Shown: positions 11,829 through 57,241 of the stretch, one piece after another | Position numbering within the stretch: position 1 is the first letter of the stretch | How the letters are laid out: every line of letters begins with the position of its first letter | NCBI GenBank assembly: GCA_001600875.1 | Contig: BCLD01000011.1 | Span: forward strand, 124,001-188,000 | DNA: 64,000 nt | Source of the DNA: Solicoccozyma terricola | Lineage: Eukaryota; Basidiomycota; Tremellomycetes; Filobasidiales; Piskurozymaceae | Direction: 5' to 3' | The notes under the pieces: generated by a model | Databases searched by the model: none | Told to the model about the DNA's origin: nothing | What the model saw: only the letters and a program-made list of their open reading frames with translations | Position numbers and translations under genes: made by a program

Positions 11829-12800
11829 CTATGCGCGGGCGTTTTGCTCGGAAGGGTTGGGCAAGTCGAACGGCGCATCGTCACGCCGCTCAGCCAGGAT
11901 GAGATGCTCAAATGTCGACGACCATGCGGTGCGGGGTGTGAACGTGGGGAGATTCCACAGCTGGCCAAGGGTGGCGATGATGGATGAGGCCGAGTACTCT
12001 CCGCCCTGGTTGGCGCTCTTGTGCTCCACAATGCCCTTGCCCACCCAGGGCGAGATGAGCATCGTAGGCACTCGGANACCCAGCCGGTCGAAANGAAAAG
12101 TAATGTTAACGCCGTCCAGCGCTGCCTCGCTGTAGGTCAGGTTGTCGCCCGCAGGGACATTGACTGGCGGAGGAACGTGGTCGGCAAATCCGCCTGCGGT
12201 AGTGAGCACTTAAGTGTCAGCGATGCGACAATATATGATGCGGGCCTTGCCCTGCCCTGCCCTGCCCCCGCCCTCACCATGCTCGTCGAATGTCAGAACA
12301 AACAGCGTCTCATTCCATTGGGGGGAAGTCCGGAGTGCATCGTAAACCTTCTTGACAAAGGCTTCACCCATACCGACTGGGGATGGCGGGTGAAACGAGT
12401 CGTAGCTGCAGCATTCTGGGTTGATATAGGAGAGCTGGGGGAGTTTACCGTCTTTGGCGTTGGTGTAGAACTGGCTGAGGGGCTTGATGTTGGTCTCGTA
12501 TGCCTTGGTTTGGACGGTCCAGTTGTAAAACAAGGCATCCGGATTGAATCCGCCCGAGGCTTTGTCGTTCGGTGTGATGTAAACAGCAGTCGCGTTCGTG
12601 GTGTTTGATTAGTTTATCCACGAGATGTTACTTCTCCGAGAGTGCCTGGAAGATGGAAAGCTGGGGAAGACCACCCCAGTAGAATCCTACGTCGTTACTA
12701 ACGGCCATGGCCGCGGGAGGTGCCCGAGGTGAGATAGGCGCGATTGGGATTGGTGGGACCTGGGACGTCAGCGAACCACCTGTCGAAGAGATGCCCGGAC
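11829..12800 (-). pseudogene. Broken, 5'-truncated phosphoesterase (phospholipase C/acid phosphatase family)
   Basis: The minus strand carries the C-terminal two thirds of a PF04185-type phosphoesterase: DRWFADVPGPTNPNRAY, GLPQLSIFQALSEK, YINPECCSYDSFHPP, FVLTFDEHGEGGG, GGFADHVPPP, VPTMLISPWVGKG and HKSANQGGEYSASSI. Matching family enzymes begin earlier with a metal-binding segment, and nothing of it can be found above 12,800. There are at least two apparent frameshifts (near 12,711 and 12,650) and an in-frame TAA near 12,620, plus N bases at 12,077 and 12,094. The intact C-terminal exons show that the lesions are confined to the upstream part. Either this is a decaying gene or the draft sequence is poor here; truncation makes the first more likely. 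Confidence 0.7.
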
Positions 12801-30852: not shown

Positions 30853-32909
30853 ATGGAACGGATATTCGCACTGTCACCGGTGCCTATCCTTGTCCTGACT
30901 CCTACACTGACTGTGTTGGAGGCTTCGACGGGCTACCTGAAAATCGCCGGCATTCAACGGGATCAATGTGTAGGAGCATCTCTCGACGATGCACTCGGAG
31001 ATAGGTTGGGTCAAATCTTTGACGAAGAGACAATTCATCAGGGTGTATCCGAGGCCTTGGCGAGACGCATACCATATTTGAGCGAGATCGTCGGCCCTCT
31101 GGAAGAATTCTACTACAGGACACGGAGTACACCGGTTTATGAAGCCGCGGACAAACTCGTGTACATTCTGCTCGAGTTCGTGGATTCATCTACAGAACAC
31201 GCTCGTCAGACTTCGCTACTTGAGCAACTTCGAGCATGCGAAACCTATCGACTTCTAGTCAACACCGTCAAGGACTATGCCATTTTCATGCTGGACACTG
31301 GAGGTCACATTGTTACGTGGAACAAAGGAGCACGCCTCCTCAAGAGATATACAGCAGAGGAAATCATCGGGAAACACTTCTCGATCTTCTACGCAAAGGA
31401 GGACAGGGTAGCGGGAAAACCGGAGAGGGAATTAGCAGATGCTATCCGGGTAGGAGAGGTGGAAGATGAAGGCTGGCGGTACCGTAAAGACGGCTCTAGA
31501 TTTTGGGCTAACGTCATCATCACCCCGATATATGACGGTGATGAACACGTCGGATTCACCAAGGTAACCCGAGATCTCACGCAGAGAAAGGCAGAGGAGG
31601 CTAGAGTGATCGCCGAGTACGAGAAAGCCAGCGAAATGAAGAACCAATTTTTAGCTAATATGAGCCATGAGATACGATCACCCATGCAAGGGATGCTTGG
31701 TGCTCTTGGATTACTTCTGGACACGCCACTCACCTCGGAGCAGCGAGAATTGGCCGGGATCGTCGAAGAAAGTGGCAAGGTATTGCTGCATGTTATGTGA
31801 GTATCGCTGCTATCGGGACGTCGGGCCCAAGGGACAAGTTTGGTGTGGTGGATGCATCACTTATCATGTCATTCCCGGTCCTTCGCGTCCTTTTATTCAG
31901 TAATGACATTCTCGACTACTCCAAGCTCTCTTCTGGCAGGTTTACCATCAATGAACATGACTTTTCTATCTCGCAGATGGTGCAAGCTGTCGTCAAGGGT
32001 CTCAAGGTTGGCTCAACACCCAGCGAGGTTAAACTCTCTGTCAACGTGGACAGCAGGATTCCTACCCAAATATTTGGCGACTCGTTGCGCACACGACAGG
32101 TCTTTCAAAATATCATTGGCAATGCCGTCAAGTTTACAGAGTATGGAAGCGTAACTACGACGGTGAGGCTGTTGGACACCGAAAGCGAGAGCGACACTTT
32201 AACAATCTTCGCCGAGGTAAGGGACACCGGCATCGGCATCGATGCGGGAGCAGCGTCGTCGCTGTTTACTCCATTCGTTCAAGTAGACAACTCGTTGACC
32301 AAACGGTTCCCCGGAACTGGCCTCGGACTGTCTATCTCTAAACATCTCGTCAACTTGATGGGGGGTGACATCGGCTACCTCCCGAATACGGACGGCGGCG
32401 GCAGTGTTTTTTGGTTCACCTTGAAATTCAAGAAATCTCGCAATGTCAAGGTCGACGTAGGCGTTCCTAAAGTTGGAATGGACCTCGGACAGGTCACGGT
32501 TGGAAAGAAAATATTGCTCGTTGAAGACAACCCAATCAACCAAAGAGTAATGCACAAGATGCTTACCAGACTCGGTTTCGCTGTGGTCAAGCTCGCAAAT
32601 GATGGCAAACAAGGCGTAGACATGTTCTTCGCCGAAGACTTTGATTTGGTCTTCATGGACATCAACATGCCCGTCCTTGATGGTATTCGCGCCAGCCAGC
32701 AAATCCGAGCTGCAGGCTACCAGACTCCAATCATCGCCCTCACGGCGAACGCGCTGAAAGGGGATGCAGAAACATGCATCCTCGCCGGGATGAACGATTA
32801 TTTGACTAAACCCGTCGATCGGGAAATGCTAGCCAACCGGTTGGTGCGGTGGCTATCACTCACAACGGCCCTCAATCACCTAAACATAGCTCAAGAAATT
32901 GTCCAGTAA
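30853..32909 (+). CDS. Hybrid histidine kinase, PAS-PAS-HisKA-HATPase-REC
   Basis: Two-component phosphorelay sensor, probably cytosolic since no membrane helix or signal is seen. From the Met at 30,853 (MERIFALSPVPILVL) there are two PAS domains (about residues 5-115 and 125-245; the second has AIFMLDTGGHIVTWNKGA). The phosphoacceptor H-box FLANMSHEIRSPMQGML has its His near residue 272. The ATPase follows with N-box NIIGNAVKFTE, G1 DTGIGID and G2 GTGLGLSISK. The receiver domain has LLVEDNPINQR, acceptor Asp in FMDINMPVLDG, ALTANA and DYLTKP. One intron at 31,797-31,900 splits the kinase domain (VLLHVI to NDILDYSK). All key residues are present. About 650 residues, short for a fungal hybrid kinase, so an upstream exon cannot be excluded. 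The stimulus is unknown. Confidence 0.93.
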
Positions 32910-34623: not shown

Positions 34624-35777
34624 ATGGACCTCCCACCGACATTCGGCGATAAGCTTTATCCATTCAGCCACTTGCTAGGCTATCGCAATCATCACACCTA
34701 CAAACGGGGTCATCCCAAGGTGTTCAGGTCACTGAGGTCCAAGCCGTGGTTTACCAAGGCTGAGCACATCTTGCAGACATTCATTGGTGGGTGTAACTTA
34801 GTCGTGCGGAGGTTAGGGGTAAGCTAAGCGTAGATTTATATACCCTGGTACAGGTGCTTGGGTTGGTCTTGCAATACTGGGTGGGTCTGGTGGAAGTTGA
34901 CGGCGTCCGGCGTCTTTCGACGGTAGCCTGACGGACGATTTACCCCACAACAGGTGCCACATCCAAAGCTTTTCCAACCCGCAATGTTCCCACGGTCGTT
35001 GGTAGTTTTGGAGCTGAAGCAGTGTTGCTTTATGCCGCTCCTGTGAGCCCGAAACCTCACCCTGGACCCGAACCATCTTCTCGCATCTGACATGCCTCCC
35101 CGCCATCGCTTCCTAGACGTCGCCGATGGCACAACCACGGAATATTATCGTCGGCATGGCGTTATCTTCCATACTAGGAGTGGCAATCGCAAAACTCTTC
35201 GCGTTGCAGACCTCGGCTTTCCCGAATTATTCGCACGACTGGGCGGCAGCTGCGACGACGGTGGCTATTAGTCTGATGGTCACTCAGATCTTCAACATAC
35301 CGTGGGTTCACTTCCGCTACTCCCGTAAAAAAACAACAACACAAGGATGCTGATGCTGGAGATTTGCAAATGACAAGTCATCCGCCTGGAGGCGCTTCGG
35401 CGTTGTTAGCAGCCACCAATAAACAAATTTTCCAACTCGGTTGGTTTTGTGAGTGCCCTCGCTCCCACTGTATCAACGCACAGACCCCCGACGGTTCAAT
35501 GCGTCATTTATGTTGTACAGACGTTGGATACATCATGATCGGTAGCTGCCTCATGCTAGGTTGGGGAATGATCATCAACAACATCGGACGCAGGTGAGTC
35601 CCTCCATCAACAACCCACTTGTCCCCGACGTCACCCGGATACTGAGATCACATATCATTCAGACGGTATCCTCAGTATTGGATATCGCCGGATCTCATTT
35701 ATGAGCATGAACAAGGAGATGACGAAGAGTTGGGAAAGGCGCCAGGGTCGTCTAGACCGGAAGAGAATCAAGGATAG
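34624..35777 (+). CDS. HPP-family integral membrane protein (putative anion/nitrite transporter)
   Basis: A small membrane protein with four or five helices. Exons join as MDLPPTFGDKLYPFSHLLGY .. FIGAWVGLAILG, then VPTVVGSFGAEAVLLYAAP, SPMAQPRNIIVGMALSSILG and TTVAISLMVTQIF. The family hallmark HPPGGASALLAA follows, then GYIMIGSCLMLGWGMIINN, RRYPQYW and an acidic tail ending SSRPEENQG. These match the HPP family throughout. Introns follow FIG, AILG, YAAP, IPWVHFRY-type sequence and LGWF. I chose 34,624 because an in-frame upstream GTG is not a usual fungal start. Known: some plastid and cyanobacterial HPP proteins move nitrite. Inferred: placed next to a molybdoenzyme locus, it could serve nitrate/nitrite handling, but most fungal members are untested. 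Confidence 0.87.
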
Positions 35778-36792: not shown

Positions 36793-38181
36793 TCAGAACA
36801 TACACCAGTGACCTTCCGCTTCTCCGGCTCCGGTGAGTCTAACCCAAGCCTGTCCGCCTATCAGATCTCGGATGGCCGCTACCCCACCCTTCTTGGAAGG
36901 CACGGGAATGGGATGGCCAGCCGCGTTCAGTGTGGCAACGAAGAACCCTGCGAATCCCAGCGGCAACCTTTCGAAAGCATGCATCCATGCGTTTGCACAG
37001 GATCGGGGTAGAGGTAACCATGAGGATAGTCCAAGCAAGGGCAGGCCGAGAGACCGCATATTGACTGCGGCAGCTAGAGGGTTGCCAGGTAAACTCAGCA
37101 CGGGTGTTGTGGTTGTGTCCGTGACGGAGAGCATCACAGGCCGACCTGGCATGAGCTTGACGCCGTGGAATAGCTGCCGCAGTCCCAAGGAGGTAATGGT
37201 AGTCGGTACGTGATCTGTTGTCCCGATGGAGACGCCACCGAGGGTGACGAGGAGGTCAAGTGGTGGGTCACAAACTATATTTTACAATCCTCGTCAGCGC
37301 TCGTGTATGTGATCACTGGAGAGACTGCGCGCCGGCACGGTGAACGTACCCAGTGCTTCTTTGACGGTTTCGGCGAGTGCCTCAGCGTCATCACCAGTCT
37401 TATGGTACACTTCAACATCGAATCCGAGACCACTCAGCAAGGCCCTCAGGTACGGTGTCACCGTGTCGATGACCTGTCCGCGTGGAGGGTCGCCCGCGAT
37501 GTCGTCCACGCCGGTGACCTCCTTACCTGTTGCTATAACTCCTATGCGTTTGCGTCTGGGTTGAGACGTTTCCGATGTGACATCCTCAAAGGGTATCACC
37601 ACTTCGATATCACTGATCCCAGTCGAGGTGAGCAATAACACCTTCTCAGCGGTGATAACCTGACCAGCTGACATGACCACTTGTCCTGGTTGAACCTGCT
37701 CCCCTCTCCGTCGTCGATTCTGACCCAAGCGAACCGGCGTGATCACCTCTACCCATGTGGCACCAGTCTCGTTGTCCACACGCGCAATAACGTCTTCCAC
37801 CTTGATCACCGAGTCCCAAGCTGGGGAGTGCGGTGGGAACTCGGCACCGGTCATGATCTCCCAGCAACCAGCAGGACAGGGAGGCAGGTGTTTAGGTGGG
37901 TTATCACCGGCAACGATTCGGCCGTGAACGAGGAGGGAGGTGGGGCACTCCGGGGATGCACCGGCCAGGGAGGAGGAGCAGACGAGGTATCCGTCCATAG
38001 CAGAGTTGTCTTGGAGTGGGAAGGGAAGCCTTGCGTGGACGTTTCGCGTGGTTCGACAGTTAACAGCACATTCGGCGGGAAGTGTCGTAGGCGCCGAGGG
38101 TGTGACTTGACGACGTAGCGGGGGGATGTACGACGGCGGAGCGAGGGATTCAACAATGTCCAGAGCATGGTGGAAGGTCAT
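36793..38181 (-). CDS. moeA: Molybdopterin molybdenumtransferase, MoeA-type
   Basis: Inserts molybdate into adenylylated molybdopterin, giving Mo-molybdopterin. Exon 1 (38,181-37,350) and exon 2 (37,274-36,793) join over an intron with a GTACGT donor. A later in-frame stretch near 37,020 may hold a further small intron. The product is about 437 residues, standard for stand-alone MoeA. Visible motifs: LPFPLQDNSAMDGYLV, AGCWEIMTGAEFP, GQVITAEKVLLLTSTGI, IGVIATGKEV, DLLVTLGGVSIGTTDHV, FHGVKLMPGRPV and SLPGNPLAAAV. There is no fused MogA (Cnx1-G) domain, unlike the usual eukaryotic gephyrin/Cnx1 fusion, so this looks like a bacterial-style or extra copy. It lies 138 bases from, and on the same strand as, mobA, which suggests a functional pair. 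Confidence 0.93.
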
Positions 38182-38319
38182 GAGTTTGCGCGAGGGAACG
38201 GCGAACGGATTTGGCGGTTCTTTTCCTATGGGACGGTAATCCGAGATGGCTGATGATTGCAGCGAGGCCTGGTCACCATCCCGACGGTCCGCATGAACAA
38301 CAGGGTTCTTTGGATGTCA

Positions 38320-39166
38320 TCACGACATCTCACTGACCTCGACTTTCCGCCCACCTAGCTTCTCAACGGCATCATCCCATTCTTTCGGTGTATCCGCGTC
38401 CATGACGGCATACTCATCCAGCACCCTCACCCCACCTCTTCCCTCCTCGACTTTCCCACCCAGTACATCTTTTGCAGCCCGACAAGGCCCGCTCTTTCCC
38501 TTGGCGCAGTTGGCTGCTAGTTGTTGCAGTGCCGGAGGAGTCCATATCGAGAAGAGCGGCTCTGGGTTGGAGTCAGACGGGTGGAGGTAGAGCGTGACAG
38601 GTGATGGAGGGTCAGCGAATGCATGCGAGGAGACGAGGTGGGTGATCGATTCGCGAGTGAGGAAGGGTAAGTCGACGGCTGCGGATCAAGTGAGCGAATG
38701 ATGTCAGTGATAATTGACCGGGAAGATGAGCTGAAGAGAACTAGCCTACCTAGCACAAGCCAAGTCGCCTCCGGTCTCATGTCGAAAGCACGAAGGATTC
38801 CTGTGGCAGGTCCGATGTCGCCTGTCAAATCAGGATCATCGACAATCACGCCGACGTCCTTGATTGTTGTCAGGAAGCGGTCATAGATGATTACCCTACG
38901 GAGCCGCACGAAAGAGCCACAGCCGGTCACGGCCTCACATTCGGTAACTCAAGCTCCAGTCGTTGTTCCTGCCTACAGCTGACCCACAAGCCGTCTGGAA
39001 ACATACTTTCTCCATCCATGAGTTGTTTCAGCGTACGTAGGTGATGCTGATACAGTGGAAGGCCGGTGACGGGATGGGTGAGCAGGTGCTTTGGACGGCC
39101 CATCCGGGTGGACTTGCCGCCCAGGAGGAGCACGACGCAATGGACTTGGCAGGTAGAGGAATGCAT
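38320..39166 (-). CDS. mobA: Molybdenum cofactor guanylyltransferase, MobA-like
   Basis: Transfers GMP from GTP to Mo-molybdopterin, the step that makes the guanine-dinucleotide cofactor of bacterial DMSO-reductase-family enzymes. Exon 1 has the nucleotide-binding signature LLLGGKSTRMGRPKHLL (residues 13-29), then GLPLYQHHLRTLKQL. Exon 2 has VIVDDPDLTGDIGPATGILR and WLVLA, which continues over an intron into VDLPFLTRESI with the metal-binding Asp. The tail includes NPEPLFSIWTPPALQQL and MDADTPKEWDDAVE, typical MobA endings. About 235 residues. The junction of exons 1 and 2 is off by one base with the best donor (38,938), so a less usual donor or a base error is needed there. MobA is not part of the standard eukaryotic pathway. 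Confidence 0.92.
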
Positions 39167-39435
39167 GGGGTCATGGATCCGATGTATGTTGAAGGCTGCG
39201 TGTGCTTCATACGGCTTGGATGTCCATGCAACACTGTTCCCTACAAAGTCACAAGCGAATGACGGTCGATGGGCCCCCTACCGGCGGCAATGAATCTCGT
39301 TCCTGGGAAGTGGGATTGAATCATGTGGAGGTCGACACGGGATGACACGAGCGAGCGAGCTATGACGAAGCAAGCTGGCAGAGCTCCTCCCCGGTTTACA
39401 CCACGACAACAGAGACTAACTACAGCTATCCCAAG
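39167..39435. promoter_or_regulatory. Divergent promoter region shared by mobA and the molybdopterin oxidoreductase
   Basis: The 269 bases separate the two start codons, so both promoters must overlap here. This arrangement often gives co-regulation. I cannot identify specific operator sites by eye. Confidence 0.5.
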
Positions 39436-42400
39436 ATGGTGCGCATATCCAATCGTCCTCCTATCGACTTGGGACCATGCGTCGTAGAAACGCGCGATTC
39501 TGTCACGGACGTGTACGGCCCTCGAACCGGATTTCATGGCGATGACGGAGAGTGGCCGGTACGGGTGGATCAGATCCTAACCGAGTTGAGTGGAGTGGAG
39601 TGGAGTGCAACGACGGTGCAATACCCAATAGTTGGGTTGGCGCTGACCTATTGGTCTCGACTCTCAGCGAGAACCCCGATAAATGGGTACAAAGCGCATG
39701 CGTGATGTGAGCGGGGGCGACTGCTGGGATCAGGGACCTCTTCAAGTTCTCATTATTTGCTCTGCCTGTCGGAGAATAGGTGCTCCAACGGGTGCGGGGC
39801 GGATATTGCAGTGAAAGACGGCAAGATCGTGGGCATGCGTGGTCGAGAAGTTGACAGGGTCAACAAGGGTCGACTGGGACCGAAAGGGTGAGCCGGCCAG
39901 GGTCAATCAACCAGAGAAATATTGTTGTCCTCATCAATAAATATCCTCGGCTAGTCTGCATGCATGGGTCAGCCAACGTTCCGAGGACCGGCTGACCACG
40001 CCTGTAAGCCCCGCCATACCCCCTCCGTCATCGATCCTCCGCTGATGTCGCACAACGCGGTAACACACACCGATAGCTTATCCGCTCCAAAGAGACCGGA
40101 ACGCTCGAACCAGCATCATGGGACGAGGCGATGGACCTCATTGTGTCCAAGAGCAAGCACCTGATTGAAAAATACACACCCCACTCGATCGCTTTCTACA
40201 CCTCCGGCCAGTTCTTCCTGGAGGAGTACCATACGTTGGCTTTGATCGGGAAAGGTGGGTTAGGGTGAGTGATGTTATGGCTTTGGGGGTATCGATATGG
40301 GTATGTAGGATGCAGAGGCTGATGCAAGTTATTGGTCCTCATCTAGCACCCTGCACATGGACGGGAACACTAGGCTTTGCACGGCTACAGCCGCCACCGC
40401 CATGCGGGAGAGTTTCGGATGTGACGGTCAACCTGGATCATACCGAGACATCGTGAGTCGCAGCAACTTCTCTCCGGGAGCTTTATCAATTTCTAACTCA
40501 CCCCTTACATCCCAGGACTTTGCCGACACTATCTTCCTCGTCGGCCACAACATGGCCGCCACCCAGACGGTCCTGTGGACCCGTATCCTGGATCGCCTGG
40601 ATGGACCCAACCCGCCGACGATCATCGCTATGGATCCGAGGGAGACGCCGGTGGGCCATGCCGCCAAGAGCAGCGGAGGCGTCATGCTCGGACTCAAGAC
40701 TGGAACGAATCTGGCGCTGTTAAATGGGTTGTTGAGGATCATTTTGAAGAACCCGGCGTGGTATGACAAGGAGTACATAGGCGAGTTCTTTATCGGTTTC
40801 TTCTCTATTTAGTCGTGGAGATAGCTTAGCAGGCTTGACGGTATGGCTACCCTACAGACAACCATACCGTCGGAATCAAAGATCTCATCCACACGGTCGA
40901 GGAGTACACTCCCGAGAGGGTCTCGGAGATCACTGAAGTGGCGGTGGAAGATATCCTGCGTGCCGGAGAGCTTCTAGGGAAGAGCAATCGTCTGCTCAGT
41001 ACCTGCTTGCAGGGCGTCTAGTACGTAACTGAAGTTGAAGTCAGCTCCGGCGGAAACGTCCCATCCCTTGATCATCCTTGTTTGACCTTGCATAGCCAAT
41101 CCAACCAAGCCACAGCCTCAGCTTGTCAGGTAAACAACATCCATCTGATCAAAGGTATGTTGGGAAAACCCGGTTGTGGTATATTGCAGATGAACGGCCA
41201 GCCGACTGCTCAGAACAACAGGGAGGTGAGGTGTAACAGGTGTTGCATCCTTACGATACAGCGCTAATGTTTTCATGACTTCTTGCCTCAGTGCGGGTGA
41301 GTTTCCACTGCTTTGTCTGTCGTCAGACCGAAACCGAAACCGAAACCGAAACCAATCCGTTTACAGGTGTGACGGGGAGTTCCCTGGGTTCCGCAACCAG
41401 TTCAACCCAGAGCATATGAAGGACCTCGCCAACGCATGGAATCTGTGAGACCCAACGACCAGCTTTTTCTCACTGTCGGACTTATAACCCCCCGTTGACC
41501 GAGTGCCTTCGTTATCCTTCCTCAGAACTGTGAAGGACATTCCACACTGGAGTCAGCCGACCCATATCATGAGCCTGATGAATTATATTGAGGCGGGTAG
41601 CGTGAAGATGATATGTAAGTGTTTTGACGCCGTGTGCAGACGATCGTGGTACTGAGGTGTAAGATCGCTGCAGGGATATCGGGGACCAAGTGAGTCCACC
41701 GCAGTGGATCTGAGCTCACCCTCCGTCCTTCAAAAGCCTGAACGCTGTCTTCCTTGTAGTCCGGCTGTATCGATGCCTGAGCTTCAACGTGTCAGAAACT
41801 CCTTCGTCGATTCCGATCTCTTCATCGTGGCACAGGTGGGAGCCGTGAACGTACAGCATTCCGGCAAAGTCCTCACAAGCGATCATCCTCCACAGGACAT
41901 CTTTCCTACAGAAACTACAGCTCTGGCTGACGTTGTGCTGCCGGGAGCTCAGTGGGCTGAGAAAACAGGTTGTCAGTTAGAAGTCCCTTCAATATGTAGG
42001 CAAACGCTTCTACCGCGCTGACACATCCGCTGTTCACCACACAGGCTTCACCAACGCCGACCGTACCGTACACATCTCACACAAAGCGATTGACCCTCCC
42101 GGTCAAGCGTGGAGCGATCTCAAGATCTTTGCCGCATATGGCCATAGGATGGGCTTCAAGGATAAAGATGGGCAGCCACTGATCAAGTGGAACGACGAGC
42201 CGGAAAAGGCATTCAACCACTGGAAATCCTCGACTGCTGTGAGTGTCGGGTACGGCATATGAGAGATATGACACACAATGAATATTGTTCTCCTGCCAGG
42301 GTCGGCCCTGCGACTACACCGGCTTGTCCTACGAGAAGCTCACGGGTGGTTCAGGAATCCAATGGCCATGCAACGAGGTGAAGGGATCGAGAAAGCACAT

Positions 42401-44249
42401 TGTTTGAGATTATAACAGCTCACCATGCCGTGGACCTGCAGGCCAACCCTCGAGGAACCGAGAGACTGTACACTGATGGTGTCTTCCCTACCTCCATGGC
42501 AGATGCCGAATCATTTGGCAACGATTTGCTGACCGGGACGCCGATCAGCCCTGACAAATATCGTGAGCTACAACCGAACGGCCGAGCAATCATCAAGCAT
42601 TGCCGCTACGCTCCGCCCGAGGAGATGAATGATCGAGAGTACCCATATATGTTGAGCACTGGCCGAATCGTCCACCACGTAGGTCGAAGGAAAAGACCTG
42701 CGCCGTCTGTATGTGTGCCTCATGAATTCATGTTCGTCTCCAGTTCCACACGAGAACAAAGACGGGAAGATCTCAGCGACTGCAGGACGCAGCAGCAGAG
42801 GGATTCATCCAGATTTCAGAGGAAGACGCCGCCGAACTTGGAATCAAACAAGGGGACACAGTCCTTGCCAAATCCCGCCGGGGCCAAGTCGAGCTTTCGG
42901 CGAAAGTTGGCGAGATTAAGAAGGGCAACGTTTTTATTCCGTTTCACTACGGCTCGTTCGATCAACAGGACAAGGAAGGCAAGGCCGTCCCGTCAACTGC
43001 TGCCAACGAACTCACAGAGAGCGCTTGGGACTTTACCTCCAAGTGCGTGATCGTGGAATGACTCTGAGGAAGGCCTCACCTGACAAATCATTCTTTTTGA
43101 ACGACGGTTCCCAGGCAACCTTGCTTCAAGGTGAGAGACGACCCTGGGACACACCTCCACGAGCACATTACCTTTCTGACAAGCCCTTGCCCCTATCAGA
43201 GCGGTGCCGTGTCTCTTGAAAGGGTTGATCCGACCGTCAAGATCCACGCCGTCTCACGCCAAAGAGAAATGTCCGACAAAAAGCGAGAGCAAACGGTTCA
43301 AGGCGAGCACTCATCCTCGAACGTAGACGACCATCACAGGCACCTTTGTGACTTGTTAGGAGAGGTGAGTGGGGGGCTAAGGACGACATGGATAAATCTT
43401 TACCACGGTACATCGTGCGGCTGACTCGGCTCGTGGTCGACCCGCAAGTTCGAAGTCTTTGCCAACGCAGCCATCGCGCTATTCCTGACGCTGGCCAAGG
43501 CTCACGAGAAAGAAACGTAGGCTCAGAGACGCTTTTCTCACCCACGGGTCCAGTTCAAAGTGATAGCTTACTGCTCATCTGGCAGTGAACACCGCAAGGT
43601 CCTCAAGATCCTCAACAAGACCTGCTCAGAAGCAATGGACGGGATGCGGCCGTTCATCACGCAGTATGGAGAGGTTACCTCTCAGGCGGAGAGGGATGTT
43701 GGGCTAGCTATGGAAATGCTATTCCCTGCCAAGAGAGTAGGGTCGAACGCGTGAGTTCGATGCTTGTACTGTTCTCAGCAGAGGTTATCCCAATCCTCAC
43801 CGCCAATTTCGTCGTACAGGTACAAGAAACTGATGGAGTACGTCGTGCGCTGAATTGCGGATGAGTGGAAATAGTGCTGATGCCTCAGTGCCTCCCGCTC
43901 CAAGCCTCAACGGAGTGTACATGATCTGTTCCGCGGTGGAAGGGTTCCTGGCACCACTACAACCGGCCGCGCAAGCCCTTCATGACCAGCAATTTGTGGA
44001 GGCAATCGATCATGCCAGCGAGGCGTTCCAGATGGCCAAGATGTGGGCGACGTGAGTGCTGGTTGTTAATGAGTGCTTTGAATAGCATCTGACAATGTGG
44101 TGATGTACTGCTGCCCAGAAACATGAACAAGGTACGTGTAGCGCTACGGCTGTGGTTGAGCCGTCAACTGATTTGCCGTCATGCTGGACCAGGTCGCCGG
44201 TCCTCAGACGCTGATTGTCCCGGTCAAGATCGACGGTCAACTATCGTGA
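39436..44249 (+). CDS. Bacterial-type molybdopterin (bis-MGD) oxidoreductase with a C-terminal helical extension
   Basis: Large soluble redox enzyme, about 1,050 residues from more than 15 exons. In order: GEWPVRVDQ and DKWVQSACVMCSNGCGAD (iron-sulfur segment), GRLGPKGLHAW, WDEAMDLIVSKSKHL, GQFFLEEYHTLALIGKGGLG, MDGNTRLCTATA (Cys at 40,378-40,380 as probable Mo ligand), IFLVGHNMAATQTVLW, LQGVYQSNQATASACQVNN, GKPGCGILQMNGQP, ISGTNPAVSMPELQRVR, LADVVLPGAQWAEKTGCFTN and GRPCDYTGLSYEKL. The dinucleotide-binding domain has YMLSTGRIVHHFHTRTKTGR and GNVFIPFHYGSFD. About 240 further residues form an unknown, mostly helical tail (AHEKETEHRKVLKILNK). Bacterial relatives are annotated as nitrate reductase or formate dehydrogenase-like; the substrate here is undetermined. 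One junction near 43,850 is unresolved. Confidence 0.94.
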
Positions 44250-44679
44250 AGGCTGGAAGGGTCGATATGCACAGCGTGGCGATAGAATCCAATTGATTCG
44301 AAGTTCGATGTTGACCGTAGCGTTGCGTGCGCCTTCCAATTCTGGTCGGCTTTTCACGGGCTCACGAGGTTAGGGGTCAGGCGTGAAGCGAATTGTCGTA
44401 TGGTTATGTCTAGTCCTTATTTTTGCCGATAAGAAGATGTTAAGACCGAATCTGCGTCAATGACCCAGCACTTCGACTGTAAGGATACCACCAATCCACT
44501 CGATTGCGTCGTCGAAGATGTCGGACCGAGCCGTCGCATTCGGGTCGGTACGAAGCTTCGGTGATGCGCCCAGCGCAAAACAGAGACCAGTACAAATACT
44601 CTCGACAACATGGATGAATCTCCATTGCACTCTGACAAACAGTCTTCCATTATCCTATTTGAAGAAAACTTTAGCTGCC

Positions 44680-46582
44680 ATGTCACCCTCCGTTGTGGCC
44701 GTGTCGCGCACCACCAGTCTCCTCTACAGAGATTTACATGGGAGGGATCCAGAGTTGGTTGTTGGGGCCGAAGGAGCGTATTTGATCCTGGATGACGGCT
44801 CCAGGCGAGTGTTTTGAGTCCACGGCGACCGCAAAGTTTGAACGGCACTCACCACCACCCTTTCCGGTCTCGCAAGATCCTGGATGCTTGCGCCGGAGCT
44901 GCCGTGGCGAGCATCGGTCACGGTGACCAGCGCGTTATCACCGCCATTACGAAACAGCTCCAATCGATCTCATACCATCATACCTCTCGCTTCACCAATC
45001 CAGTGCGTACATACATGACGCTCGTTTTGGCCCGTATGAAGCTAAATACGGCCCGCTTTTGAGGACCCTCTAGGCTGCTGAAAAGCTGGCAAACACTCTC
45101 GTCGGTCACAAGCCGGGTGGTCTTTCCAAAGCCATTTTCTTGTCTTCAGGGTCAGAGGCCAACGAATCGGCCATCAAGTTGGCTCGCCAGTACTTTGTTG
45201 AGCGAGGACAGAGCGAGAGAATCAACATCATTTCCAGGAACAACAGCTATCATGGAAACTCCATTGGTTGTGTTTCTCTCACCGGAATCCCGGTAAGCCT
45301 AGGGTGGCATCTCACCCTCGACAGTGAAGCTCATGCGATCGATGATGTCCTCTCAGAGTCGACGACGCCACTTTGAGCCCATACTCTTGAAGACTTGCAC
45401 TCGGGTGTCGCCTTGTTACCCATATCGCTACAAGCAAGCAGACGAGTCCGACGAACAGTACTCTCAGCGGCTGGCATTCGAATTGGAACAAGAGATTCTG
45501 CGACTGGGGCCAGAGACAGTGGCGGCTTTCTATGCCGAAACTGGTAGGCATTGATTGGCCCTCGGTGGGGATTGGAGAGTCTATTTCGTCTGACATTCGA
45601 CCTGTTGTTAACCTCGTCTGCAGTCGGAGGTGCCGCTGCCGGAAATTTGACCCCCGTGCCAGGTTATTTTCTAGCTGTCCGTCAGGTCTGCGACAAGTAT
45701 GGCGTACTACTTATCTTGGATGAAATCATGTGTGGCATGGGAAGGACAGGCAAGATGCATGCTTGGGAATGGGAAGGTATGTCAGCTAAAGTCATACCTT
45801 CCTCTCGTAGCCCATCATCTGATTCACTCACTATACTGGAGCAGGAATTGTTCCCGACATCCAGACCATCGGCAAGGGACTCAACGGCGGATACATGCCT
45901 CTTTCCGCTGTTTTGATGCAAGACCACATCTACCAAGGATTTTGCTCTGGATCCGGGGCGTTCGCTAACGGTCAGACTTTTCAGTGTCACCCTTCTTCTG
46001 CCATGGCTGGCTTGGCGGTGTTGAAAGTGTTCGACGAAGATCATGTGGTTGAGAATTGTCGGCTGCGAGGAGAAGAGGTGAGAACACTACTGGTGAAGAT
46101 TGTGATATCATGTTTCATTTCAGCTCTACCATCTTCTACCACTGTATAACCTCGATAGCTCTACCGTGGTCTAAACGAGAGGCTGGGAAGGCACCCTCAC
46201 GTTGGGGAGATTAGGTGAGTTTCCGTCAGCACTGTTATGGAATCTCGGCGAGCTTAATGCATCCCGAAAACCTTGTAGGGGACGTGGACTGTTCCTATCA
46301 CTCGAGTTCGTTGTGGACAAGGCAGAGAAGTCGACCTTTCCAGTCTCCTTGCCACTCGCATCCATGCTGGACGACGCCATCTTCCGCAGAGGCGTCTCGA
46401 TATACTCAGGGTTCGGAAAGGGGACTGCTGACGGCGTCAGGGGTGATCACATCTTGATCTCGCCCCCGCTCAACATTACGTCAAGTCAAGTTGAGGACAT
46501 AATCCAGGCCATTGCAGAAGGAATCGACGAAGTATTCAGCTCCGAGATTGTGCAGAGTTCCTTGAGCGGGAATCCGTCGTGA
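44680..46582 (+). CDS. Class III PLP-dependent aminotransferase
   Basis: Transfers the amino group of an amine or omega-amino acid to a keto acid, using pyridoxal phosphate. Start MSPSVVAVSRTTSLLYRDL. Then YLILDDGSRR joins ILDACAGAAVASIGHGDQRV over an intron, followed by FLSSGSEANESAIKLARQY and NSYHGNSIGCVSLTG. FYAETVGGAAAGNLTPVPGY is formed across an intron, and then come VLLILDEIMCGMGRTG and IGKGLNGGYMPLSAV, with the Schiff-base Lys at 45,874-45,876. FANGQTFQCHPSSAMAGLAV, GRGLFLSLEFV and ILISPPLNITSSQVEDI follow. All class III hallmarks are present; about 455 residues in eight or so exons. Substrate specificity cannot be read. It follows the oxidoreductase by 430 bases on the same strand. 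Confidence 0.93.
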
Positions 46583-53344: not shown

Positions 53345-54929
53345 GAGAGATGGCATTTGGGGTGGAAGGTGCCCGATTACAGGTGGACATAGCTTGCACA
53401 AATGTACATACATGCCTGGCAACGCCAGCTGTGATCAGCCTGTGTGAAGCTTCGGTCCCGAACATGTTTGAGTGATAGGGAATCTTGATAGGTCTTTCCA
53501 GCACATGGTTAACCGGACGAGTCGGCGAGGGGATTTGTTCTGACAGTCTTTTGAGAACACTTATTTCATCATATTAGTCAAATTAACCCACCTCATCCAA
53601 ACGCCGAATTCGACCTCCTTGACGATCCATGTCGGTCTGAAGAGAATGCATCAGTTTGCGAATTCTCTTGGAAGGTAACCTTTCCAACCAATTCACGTGC
53701 TCGACTCGCTGCCACACCCCAGCCTCCCCAATCTCCGGTCTTCAGATCCTCGACGTCGAGCCCAAACGTCCCAGTCCCTTCACAGGGACCCAAGTCGAAG
53801 TTGAGGACGGTCGTGTTGATAGTGGTGGCCGCCATGGTACTTTAGTAGGGTGTATTAGATGGCGGAATACGCTGTTGTTGTGCAAGCATGCTGGATTATA
53901 ATAGAAGACCACACCATGGCGACAGACATGGAACCGGATTTTTCTCTAGATTCTCGGCGCAAGGGCGGTCCCGGCCGTCGGGTGACTCCAAGGCAGATAA
54001 GATAATAATGTTTTCGAGCTTTCACACCCTCTCCCTTCGTTACTGACCGTATGAGGAAGTAGCGCTGTCGATGGGGATGGTGTTGAACAGTTGGCCTTTT
54101 ATGTCCTTCGGTATATCTACTTCGGCCGACTCTTTGGTGCATCGACAACTTTCTCTCGGATTCACCGTCAATCGGATTCAAACGGCGGTCTGCTCAACTC
54201 AGCTCACGACTTCCATGATTCACCCCTGACCCTTTCATCCTCCTCATCTGGCTTTCGACCACTCACGGTAGTAAACACGAATCTCGCACTTTGTTATATC
54301 GATTTGGTAGGCGGGAATATCAACTACACCAGAAAGAAGGTCCTGGTAAACTCGCAAACTTGATCTGAAATTCCCGAAATATGTCTCTGCGTGACAGGTG
54401 CGAATCTGAATGCACGATAACTGAAACTGGTCAAGGATCCTCATGGCAGAACTGAAGGATATATACAATCTTGTGCGGCTGACGGTATGAACAAACGAAA
54501 ACCAGGGAGGTCATACCGCTAGCCAAGTCACAACCCTTGTTTCTCGGACGATCTCCCATTCTTTTTTCGTGCTGGGCACCTGCGTTTCCTTTCGTCATCG
54601 GTTCAGCGGGGAAATCTCTACACTGGCAAATGCAAATGGGGCGGGCTTTTGTCCGGCACATGTCTGAACATTTATTGTTAGACTGCCGGGACCAGCTTTG
54701 ACGATTACCTTCCGGGTAGGCCGTCCGACATCCGTCCGAGAGATGACCGGGAAACTGTCCTATCAGCCGCCGTACAGTCGTAGGTACAGTGAGGAAGCGG
54801 TCTCGTGCTTACGGTTGGGGGATGGTCGGGGATACAAGAGAGTCCTTATTGCGCGGGGTACGGTCTTGTCACCCTTCCAACTGACGACTCACCTCTAGAT
54901 ATCTTCCCAACGACAGCTCCACATAAACC
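53345..54929. other. Intergenic region; one doubtful small open frame
   Basis: Apart from the doubtful frame at 53,593-53,835, I see no gene. The region upstream of 54,930 would hold the alpha-galactosidase promoter. Confidence 0.45.
53593..53835 (-). CDS. Possible small hypothetical protein
   Basis: 80 codons from a Met in good context (ACCATGGC) at 53,835: MAATTINTTVLNFDLGPCEG, then GTFGLDVEDLKTGDWGGWG. No family is recognised. It could be the remaining first exon of a lost gene. Confidence 0.28.
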   Translation of the reverse strand: MAATTINTTVLNFDLGPCEGTGTFGLDVEDLKTGDWGGWGVAASRARELVGKVTFQENSQTDAFSSDRHGSSRRSNSAFG

Positions 54930-57241
54930 ATGTCCAAATGTGAGTATGATCCTAGCGGCTCGACCGAAAGATTAGCTGATGCCGCCTACTTTTACACTTT
55001 ACCAGTCATCACCGTCACCCCAGACCTGACGTTCACCCTTCACGGACCTTCTGTAGCCTACAGCTTCCACGTCGACCCTGAAACCGGCGAGCTCCTGCAT
55101 CGTAATTTTGGCGGGCCATTATCTGCTCCGCCTCCTCTGGCTGTTCCCGGACGGGCAGATGGGTGGGTCACACACCTAGGTAGGAAGCAGAGGGAGTTTC
55201 CGGATCTCGGACGAGGGGATTTCAGGTCACCCGCGGTGAGGATCCGACATGATGCCGGAAAAGGACACGCGGTGGTCCACTTCAAGTACGCCAGTCATCA
55301 AGTTGTCGGTGGGAAGCCCCCGCTCGAGGGACTCCCGTGCACTTTTGCCGAAGTTTCAGATGCTGGGACATTGATCGTCACACTACACGATGAAGTCGCC
55401 AAGCTTTCCGCTCATCTTTATTACACCATCATTCCGGCTCACTCTGCAATCGTCCGTTCGGTCCGCATCGTCAACCACGGACACGCCAGCGTGACAATCG
55501 ATCAGGCTGCTAGCCTGAGTATTGATCTGCCGAACGCAGAGTGGGAGATGTTGCATTTGACGGGAGATTGGGCGAGGGAGTCCAACGTGATTAGGCGGAA
55601 AGTACATCCTGGGACTCAAGGGTAAATTGACGGTGCTCCCCCTTTTCATTCTCCAAGACACAGCAGACTGATCCGAGTTTCGTATACAGGTTTCAAAGTC
55701 TCACCGGCTACTCTTCCCACCTGCACAACCCGTTCCTCGCAATGCTCTCCCCTGCAACAGACGAATCAACCGGCGACGCTTACGGATTTAGCCTCGTCTA
55801 CTCTGGCTCCTACGCCGCTCAAGTGGAGCTCGCTTCAGGCGGTCTCACTCGGGTACAGATGGGTCTGAATCCTCTGCACCTATCATGGGAGCTCGCTCCG
55901 GGGGAGACTTTCGTCACGCCAGAATGCGTCGCCGTGTACTCGTCAGCCGGTTTGGGTGGAATGAGTCGTGCATTCCATCGTTTATACCGCAACCACCTCA
56001 GCCGTTCCCCGTGGACGCAGAGACAACGCCCTGTGCTGATTAACAATTGGGAGGGCACCTACTTTGATTTTGACGACGACAAGCTCTACGGGATCGCCAA
56101 GAAGGCCTCCGAGCTAGGCGTCGACTTGTTTGTCATGGATGACGGCTGGTTCGGGATAAAACACCCTCGAAACTCGGACAATGCAGGTCTGGGCGATTGG
56201 ATCGTGAACCCTGCGAAATTCCCGAATGGGTTGAACGACTTTGTGAAGCGGGTGAATGCTTTGAAGACGGTTGGCAGGGAGGACATGAAGTTCGGCATCT
56301 GGGTTGAGCCAGAGATGGTCAATCCGAAGTCGGAGTTATATGAGGCACATCCAGACTGGATCCTGCATGCGGGAGGATACGAGCGGACTGAACAACGCAA
56401 CCAACTCGTCCTCGACCTCTCTAGACTGGAAGTTCAGGATTACATTATCGACAAGATTGGAGGAATTCTGTCCAGTGCCAACATCGCCTACGTGAAATGG
56501 GACCACAATCGTGGAATGCACGAGATGAACGAGCCTGCGACTGCGCATCGGTATCTCCTTGGACTCTATCGGGTTATCGACACCTTGACCACCAGATTCC
56601 CCGAGATTCTCTGGGAGGGATGCGCATCAGGTGGGGGTCGTTTCGATCCTGGAATACTGCACTACTGGCCGCAGACATGGACAAGCGACAACACCGACGG
56701 CTGGGATCGTCTGGCCATTCAATTCGGTACGAGTATAGTCTACCCGCCTTCTGCTATGGGCGGGCACGTCTCCGCTGTGCCGAATCACCAGTCTGGACGG
56801 GTGACGCCTATCGAGTTCCGAGCTCACGTAGCCATGATGTGCGGGAGCTTCGGGTTCGAGCTGGATCCGGCCAACCTGACGGACGAGGAACGAGAAGCCA
56901 TCCCGTCTCTCATCAAGCTGAGCGAGAAGATCAACCCTCTTGTTATTCGAGGTGACCTATACCGGTTAGCTCTACCTGACCAATCGAACTGGCCGGCAGC
57001 GCAATATGTTAGTGAAGATGGGAAAACCAGCGTTGTCTTGGCTTTCCAGATGCAGAATCGAATCAACATTGTCGTACCTCCACTCAAGCTGCAAGGGCTG
57101 GACGAGAAGGCCACATACACCGTGGAAGGTCTCCCCAATGGAAACACGGACGTGACAGGGGGCGCATTGATGAGCGGTGGTATTGCCCTGAACTTCGGGG
57201 GGGACTTCCAGAGTAAGGTGCTGTGGCTTACAAGGCGTTGA
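54930..57241 (+). CDS. Alpha-galactosidase, glycoside hydrolase family 36
   Basis: Hydrolyses terminal alpha-1,6-galactose from melibiose, raffinose and similar sugars. Exon 1 54,930-55,621 and exon 2 55,690-57,241 give 747 residues, the normal size. An N-terminal beta-sandwich domain (residues 1-340) leads to the (beta/alpha)8 barrel with [28 protein letters not shown] and a KWDHN motif whose Asp (56,501-56,503) is the expected nucleophile. The acid/base Asp lies in SDNTD (56,687-56,689). [14 protein letters not shown] is also present. The C-terminal sandwich ends KVLWLTRR. No signal peptide is seen, so it should be intracellular, fitting uptake of the intact sugar by the permease gene 1.9 kb downstream on the same strand. 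Confidence 0.97.

Follow-up and report, generated by a model that had tools for sequence, protein, structure and literature searches.

The eukaryotic nitrate reductase EUKNR is an enzyme of the sulfite oxidase family that carries the plain molybdenum (Mo) cofactor, Moco. A fungal gene cluster for nitrate assimilation consists of nrt2, euknr, and nir, as outlined in part of PMC2040219, and in a section of another account (PMC6147048) the SO, XO, and MOSC families are the sole eukaryotic Mo enzyme families mentioned. The guanine-bearing form of the cofactor is stated in the literature as unknown in eukaryotes. In bacteria, a dedicated MoeA that works with MobA for an enzyme using molybdopterin guanine dinucleotide (MGD) is described for Methylorubrum extorquens, where the relevant sections of PMC13197769 present a MoeA1-MobB-MobA route as well as MobB-MoeA fusions, and a high two-hybrid signal for MoeA1-MobA. 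Here, we analyzed a window of 64,000 nucleotides (nt) from the fungus Solicoccozyma terricola (C11:124001-188000; genome of 23.9 Mb in 33 contigs), in which a gene for a molybdopterin oxidoreductase (MOR) lies beside a gene encoding MobA and MoeA domains. At the sequence level, this locus and its relatives speak against the absence of the guanine-bearing form from eukaryotes. On balance, and with some reserve, we regard it as a fungal cluster in which a molybdoenzyme of the bacterial MGD class is accompanied by a protein of its own for the late steps of cofactor maturation.

The nrt2/euknr/nir cluster likewise groups fungal genes, for nitrate reduction; in contrast to EUKNR, however, MOR is an enzyme of the dimethyl sulfoxide (DMSO) reductase family accompanied by its own maturation gene. 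The Methylorubrum route resembles the fungal locus in pairing a dedicated MoeA with MobA for an MGD enzyme, but the portion of PMC13197769 dealing with it describes separate genes, tungsten, and FdhD, whereas the fungus has a MobA-MoeA fusion and no FdhD that we could find. The closest trace in the literature is a MoeA of Aspergillus nidulans, which according to a part of PMC13262936 falls among the prokaryotic sequences. No description of a fungal MobA or a fungal bis-MGD enzyme was recognized among the literature matches listed, in a search that mostly lay outside subscription journals and supplements. Each part of the locus is known or resembles a known family; as far as searched, neither their co-occurrence in a eukaryote nor a fusion of MobA with MoeA has been described.

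An intron-rich MOR gene of the MGD class

The MOR gene is predicted to occupy 39436..44249 on the + strand, with 26 exons encoding 1047 amino acids (aa), according to a spliced model, Pfam, and homologs; all gene models here were likewise derived from homology and splice rules. Exons 1-13 are placed at 39436-39584, 39632-39706, 39780-39887, 39955-40003, 40077-40264, 40347-40452, 40516-40795, 40858-41020, 41096-41225, 41292-41296, 41367-41444, 41526-41614, and 41674-41689, and exons 14-26 at 41760-41835, 41896-41971, 42045-42238, 42300-42377, 42442-42678, 42744-43042, 43115-43364, 43449-43516, 43586-43750, 43820-43837, 43875-44051, 44119-44131, and 44193-44249. Splice modeling joined them into a single frame across 25 GT-AG introns of 37-84 nt, the least certain join being that at the 37-nt intron 43838-43874. 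The predicted 5-nt micro-exon (41292-41296) sits between introns of 66 and 70 nt and is needed for a conserved Cys-Gly stretch. The product comprises the Molybdop_Fe4S4, Molybdopterin, and Molydop_binding domains, with Pfam matches above cut-off to PF00384 (164 bits), PF01568 (93 bits), and PF04879 (42 bits). It retains 149 of the 151 columns that are invariant across 51 homologs, which makes a chance frame or a relic unlikely. A profile search of the genome for PF00384 matched only MOR and contig C13, where the matches read by eye as the 75-kDa subunit of complex I; MOR thus appears to be single-copy.

The molybdopterin and dinucleotide-binding domains, together with the catalytic-subunit fold, place MOR in the DMSO reductase (bis-MGD) family. 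The predicted Mo-ligand cysteine (Cys201, in DGNTRLCTATA; codon 40378..40380, + strand) was assigned by homology to NapA via the alignment of the MOR relative P0001, and a cysteine aligned with that of NapA is present in 121/121 aligned sequences. Two exons spanning 39632..39887 (+) carry the Fe-S motif C-x2-C-x3-C and GRLGPKG. In all 120 non-gap rows of the 121-row alignment, a glycine stands at the position of NapA's fourth cysteine, so the MOR family lacks the four-cysteine [4Fe-4S] motif of NapA and NasC and may possibly hold a [3Fe-4S] cluster. Arsenite oxidase has a cluster of the latter kind. Most of the Fe-S motif is gone from the Filobasidium protein P0019, which reflects either a bad gene model or a true loss. 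Taken by homology and from the model of a relative, the fold, the Mo-ligand cysteine, and the dinucleotide-binding domain indicate an MGD-class enzyme, as in NapA, Nas, and formate dehydrogenase enzymes. Compared with NapA of Desulfovibrio desulfuricans (2nap) and the NasC/NarB-type enzymes, MOR is alike in fold and in its Cys-ligated Mo site (P0001 being 32-35% identical over the catalytic part), but it differs in the glycine described above, in an extra C-terminal helical domain, and in being a eukaryotic gene with introns. Unlike in NapA, no export signal was visible in the MOR sequence by eye (no predictor applied).

The C-terminal domain, encoded by 43115..44249 (+), is predicted to be all-helical from the helices at 850-1000 in the structure model of P0001. 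Its layout was counted over 18 bacterial MOR loci, leaving out 2 with a partial match: the domain is fused to the enzyme in 4/4 proteobacterial loci and follows a stop codon in 12/12 actinobacterial loci (L016-L027). The fungal MOR has the proteobacterial, fused layout, and in actinobacteria the domain is possibly a separate subunit or chaperone. No solved fold was found for it, in a structure search that barely tested this domain.

A predicted MobA-MoeA fusion

On the - strand, MobA begins at 39166 and MoeA ends at 36793, the two lying in succession. Read as a gene by itself, MobA would stop at a TGA at 38320..38322 (-), but this codon falls within a predicted intron (38333-38250), one of 12 phase-compatible choices of in-frame GT-AG introns able to remove it. 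The preferred model (36793..39166, -), with exons 39166-38939, 38858-38750, 38678-38334, 38249-37350, and 37274-36793, yields a product of 687 aa that aligns with all seven fused relatives (P0140, P0141, P0143, P0144, P0147, P0149, and P0150) at 44-49% identity. The alignment reaches the N-terminal region in five of them, whereas the other two gene models have a late start that leaves out the beginning of the nucleotide motif. It runs to within 14 residues of the C-terminal ends, one stopping 14 residues short. Furthermore, the sequence 5' of the ATG of MoeA can be aligned to the linker present in the fused MobA-MoeA proteins of Sporidiobolales. Because of this linker homology, the removable stop, and the fused state of 7/7 relatives, separate MobA and MoeA genes were rejected in favor of a predicted single gene, whose exact intron is one of several phase-compatible ones. 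The preliminary description had reported three neighboring genes here; all three activities are indeed encoded at that place, with Pfam domains recovered and splice models built, and MOR is a separate, intron-rich gene, but MobA and MoeA are better read as one. The region of divergent starts common to MobA-MoeA and MOR, as derived from both gene models, measures 269 bp (39167..39435).

The MobA domain matches PF12804 (72 bits) and contains the LxGGxSxRMGxxK and DLP motifs. Its nucleotide-binding motif, LLLGGKSTRMGRPK, is encoded at 39089..39130 (-), and a similar motif occurs in 11 of the 17 fungal-type MobA sequences, the other six being short or late-starting models. For fungal MobA, the MobA models outscore MocA, which is much weaker, and the top PDB sequence matches of P0127 are MobA chains. 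The domain thus shares PF12804 and motifs with the MobA guanylyltransferase; here, however, it is fused to MoeA, belongs to a eukaryote, and stays below the curated cut-offs (TIGR02665, 40 versus 152 bits; NF011059, 71 versus 354). Among the weaker MobA relatives is a metagenomic protein, P0131, in which MoaC and MobA-type domains are fused.

The MoeA domain matches PF03453 (MoeA_N, 100 bits) and PF00994 (MoCF_biosynth, 89 bits), while PF03454 (MoeA_C) gave no match at 1e-3 with either the window MoeA or P0140 and is likewise missing from the precomputed domain lists of the seven fused relatives. A structure search with P0144 returned Mo-insertase folds. By bit score, the best match of P0144 to a solved protein was the archaeal 1xi8 (82.8 bits), narrowly ahead of gephyrin (74.5 bits). 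At the position of Cnx1E K294-x-G-K297, as we mapped it, the domain reads MPGR (RPG in relatives). Because of this altered site and the missing PF03454 match, catalytic activity of the MoeA domain is not certain. With the gephyrin E domain and Cnx1E it shares the MoeA_N and MoCF domains, the DNSAMDGY motif, and the Mo-insertase fold (P0144), but it is partnered by MobA instead of MogA. In a 36-row tree whose bacterial rows are mostly unlabeled, the window's cluster MoeA grouped with those of six yeasts and with four unlabeled rows (100/100), and the MoeA of Monosporascus and the unlabeled P0183 attach to this clade (97/92). The clade lies apart from the genome's own gephyrin E domain, a row made of exon pieces joined by eye that has a long branch and an unsure exact place. 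A survey that retained hits with all three MoeA Pfam domains states, in its part on fungi, that they kept a MogA-fused MoeA or lost it (PMC11733289); since it demands all three domains, such a filter would probably drop the cluster MoeA.

Distribution and origin of the cluster

MOR is widespread in fungal records and not special to this species. Among the best 120 of 7998 scored candidates in the homolog search, 70 had fungal names, 4 had bacterial names, and 46 had none; the fungal rows presumably comprise Ascomycota, Basidiomycota, and one chytrid. Many of these fungal records are already labeled "nitrate reductase" or "periplasmic nitrate reductase". The earlier suggestion of an undescribed eukaryotic branch of Mo metabolism holds insofar as no description turned up in the literature searched, but the enzyme itself is already present in fungal records, often under such labels.

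A quick maximum-likelihood tree, with a midpoint root only, took its 77 rows from the named fungi (34 of 70), the unnamed candidates (28 of 46), the bacterial loci (10 of 18), the 4 named bacteria, and the window. One branch, with full support in the Shimodaira-Hasegawa-like approximate likelihood ratio test (SH-aLRT 100), splits this tree: the window and every one of the 34 fungi fall on one side together with 12 unnamed rows, and the 14 named bacterial rows, without exception, fall on the other with the remaining 16 unnamed rows, so the window MOR lies within a fungal clade. On the fungal side, the chytrid branches first, and the window groups with five Sporidiobolales rows (100). These data suggest one early transfer of MOR from bacteria, and a later transfer between fungi may also have occurred. 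That a single bacterial operon supplied all three functions at once is not supported: tblastn with the window MobA, P0140, and P0127 (E 1e-3) gave nothing in the flanks of the 18 bacterial MOR loci, 5 of which have <10 kb of sequence.

The tags of fused MobA-MoeA and MOR are consecutive in four yeasts, on contigs equally long (JCM10296v2_004600/004601, JCM11641_004351/004350, JCM8097_004840/004841, and JCM3775_003873/003872). A fifth pair has equally long contigs and different annotation versions, and two of the seven fused proteins could not be judged. In Fusarium sarcochroum, MobA (FSARC_9539) and MOR (FSARC_9541) are on contigs equally long. In Monosporascus, a single gene model covers both MOR and MoeA, which is perhaps an annotation error, yet points to adjacency. 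Read from these tags, MOR would adjoin MobA/MoeA in other fungi as well. Overall, the locus is genuine, fungal, old, and conserved.

The HPP neighbor and the candidate function

A gene for a TM_HPP membrane protein of the nitrite-transporter family, bearing the HPPGGAS signature, lies at 34624..35680 (+; ends approximate, introns partly worked out), just outside the 36793..44249 originally taken as the locus. The genome search for TM_HPP matched C11:159111-159296 and 159370-159447 (window 35111-35296 and 35370-35447); the second match alone falls under the cut-off, and the joined exon pieces reach 123 bits against TM_HPP. The other HPP genes of the genome (C9 and C2) are about 42% identical to it over pieces of 105 and 57 residues. 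An HPP-family nitrite transporter is known from chloroplasts and cyanobacteria, as stated in a part of PMC4137279. In at least 4 of the 18 bacterial MOR loci, an HPP gene also stands no more than about 0.2 kb away from the enzyme. Two of these are Microvirga loci, recognized by Pfam; in the other two, Catellatospora and Auraticoccus, tblastn picked up a gene with about 40% identity to the HPP of Microvirga. The remaining 14 loci showed none, and the count is a lower bound since five loci (L012, L013, L015, L018, and L028) have <10 kb of sequence.

In the scheme that we propose, the host would supply molybdopterin by the usual route: a MoaA match and a gephyrin-type gene with G and E domains were found by homology elsewhere in the genome, and the set is thus not "self-contained" as first thought. 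The MoeA domain would insert molybdate, or receive Mo-molybdopterin, and hand over to the fused MobA domain, a step made plausible by the MoeA1-MobA two-hybrid link given for Methylorubrum in part of PMC13197769. MobA would then add guanosine monophosphate (GMP) from GTP to form bis-MGD, which would enter MOR, perhaps aided by the C-terminal helical domain. Hence, of the earlier claim that the set makes and uses its own cofactor, the joint encoding of MobA, MoeA, and an MGD-class enzyme stands, while independence from the host does not, and the cofactor of MOR is presumed to carry GMP. MOR would most likely reduce nitrate to nitrite in the cell, with HPP moving nitrite or nitrate, perhaps where the ordinary fungal nitrate reductase falls short or oxygen is low. 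As to origin, fungi would have acquired MOR from bacteria at an early stage; MobA and MoeA would have joined it in a cluster within fungi, and their fusion would have arisen in the red-yeast line.

Nitrate is suggested as the substrate by the likeness to NapA (the Desulfovibrio enzyme is both the nearest solved sequence and the best Foldseek match of P0001), by the HPP neighbor, and by the lack of an FdhD match in the genome, from an exon-by-exon search that is not watertight. Several observations weigh against this reading. The VIA Z values of NapA and formate dehydrogenases are tied (35.7 versus 35.4). In NCBIfam scoring of six MOR homologs standing in for the window protein (P0001, P0012, P0043, P0063, P0100, and P0058), all stayed under the NasC, NapA, and NasA cut-offs, and the top model in 6/6 was formate dehydrogenase alpha (453-518 bits versus a cut-off of 666). 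Besides, the genome already has apparent ordinary nitrate reductases, as judged by eye, in frames on C4 (L030, G000:C4:254792), next to a probable nitrite reductase end, and C28 (L031, G000:C28:20191); a third PF00174 match lies on C1. As for the pairing of MobA with MOR, the MobA search (E 1e-3) gave 19 proteins, with Fusarium as the sole named fungi, and none surfaced for many MOR genera, e.g., Aspergillus and Colletotrichum. This search needs shared 5-residue words and similar length and can easily overlook a MobA that is divergent or part of a fusion; indeed, it was the MoeA search that yielded the fused forms. MobA may thus not accompany MOR in all fungi. The formate dehydrogenase tie and the few fungi with MobA lowered our confidence, and for nitrate itself, with HPP moving nitrite or nitrate, the chances seem about evenly balanced. 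Still, we lean slightly towards an old fungal bis-MGD branch, in which the red-yeast MobA-MoeA would act much like a synthase of the Mo cofactor and supply an enzyme of the DMSO reductase family that many fungi have retained next to HPP, as a second, bacterial-type route for reducing nitrate or another oxyanion. If true, MOR would give fungi an extra, perhaps low-oxygen, route of nitrate reduction, and the locus offers a directly testable case in tractable yeasts.

The strongest competitor, somewhat short of even chances, is that MOR acts on another substrate, such as formate, arsenite, chlorate, selenate, or an unknown one. The formate dehydrogenase scores favor it, whereas the NapA matches, the HPP genes in the fungus and the bacterial loci, and the missing FdhD match argue for nitrate; being below the cut-off for formate dehydrogenase alpha and having no FdhD match, MOR is less likely to be a formate dehydrogenase in particular. 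It is unlikely that the cofactor is a bis-pterin without nucleotide or with another one, the MobA-like domain having a different substrate. A bis-pterin without nucleotide is reportedly found in E. coli YdhV, but here MobA is fused to MoeA and clustered with an MGD-class enzyme, and the MobA models and the PDB matches of P0127 also speak for MobA. Loading of tungsten, with the second MoeA as the metal-selective step, seems more doubtful still: the altered K-x-G-K site and the preference of P0144 for 1xi8 over gephyrin would suit it, as would the dedicated MoeA for a tungsten formate dehydrogenase in the Methylorubrum route (part of PMC13197769), but a dedicated Mo route accounts for the same facts. 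Despite the bacterial origin of the families, an assembly artifact or contaminant can practically be dismissed, given the introns throughout MOR, its fungal clade, and the same gene pair in other yeasts.

Other features of the window

An open frame at 31671-32906 (+), about 1.7 kb from the HPP gene, contains HATPase_c and Response_reg domains and forms part of a hybrid histidine kinase. Directly 3' of MOR is a class-III aminotransferase gene with introns (about 44464-46582, +), with a domain match in the frame 45074-45373 and none in the frame 46175-46579. The X residues in the frame translation at 11988-12605 reflect a few ambiguous bases there. Two long frames at 54927-57238 (+) encode a GH36 alpha-galactosidase (Melibiase).
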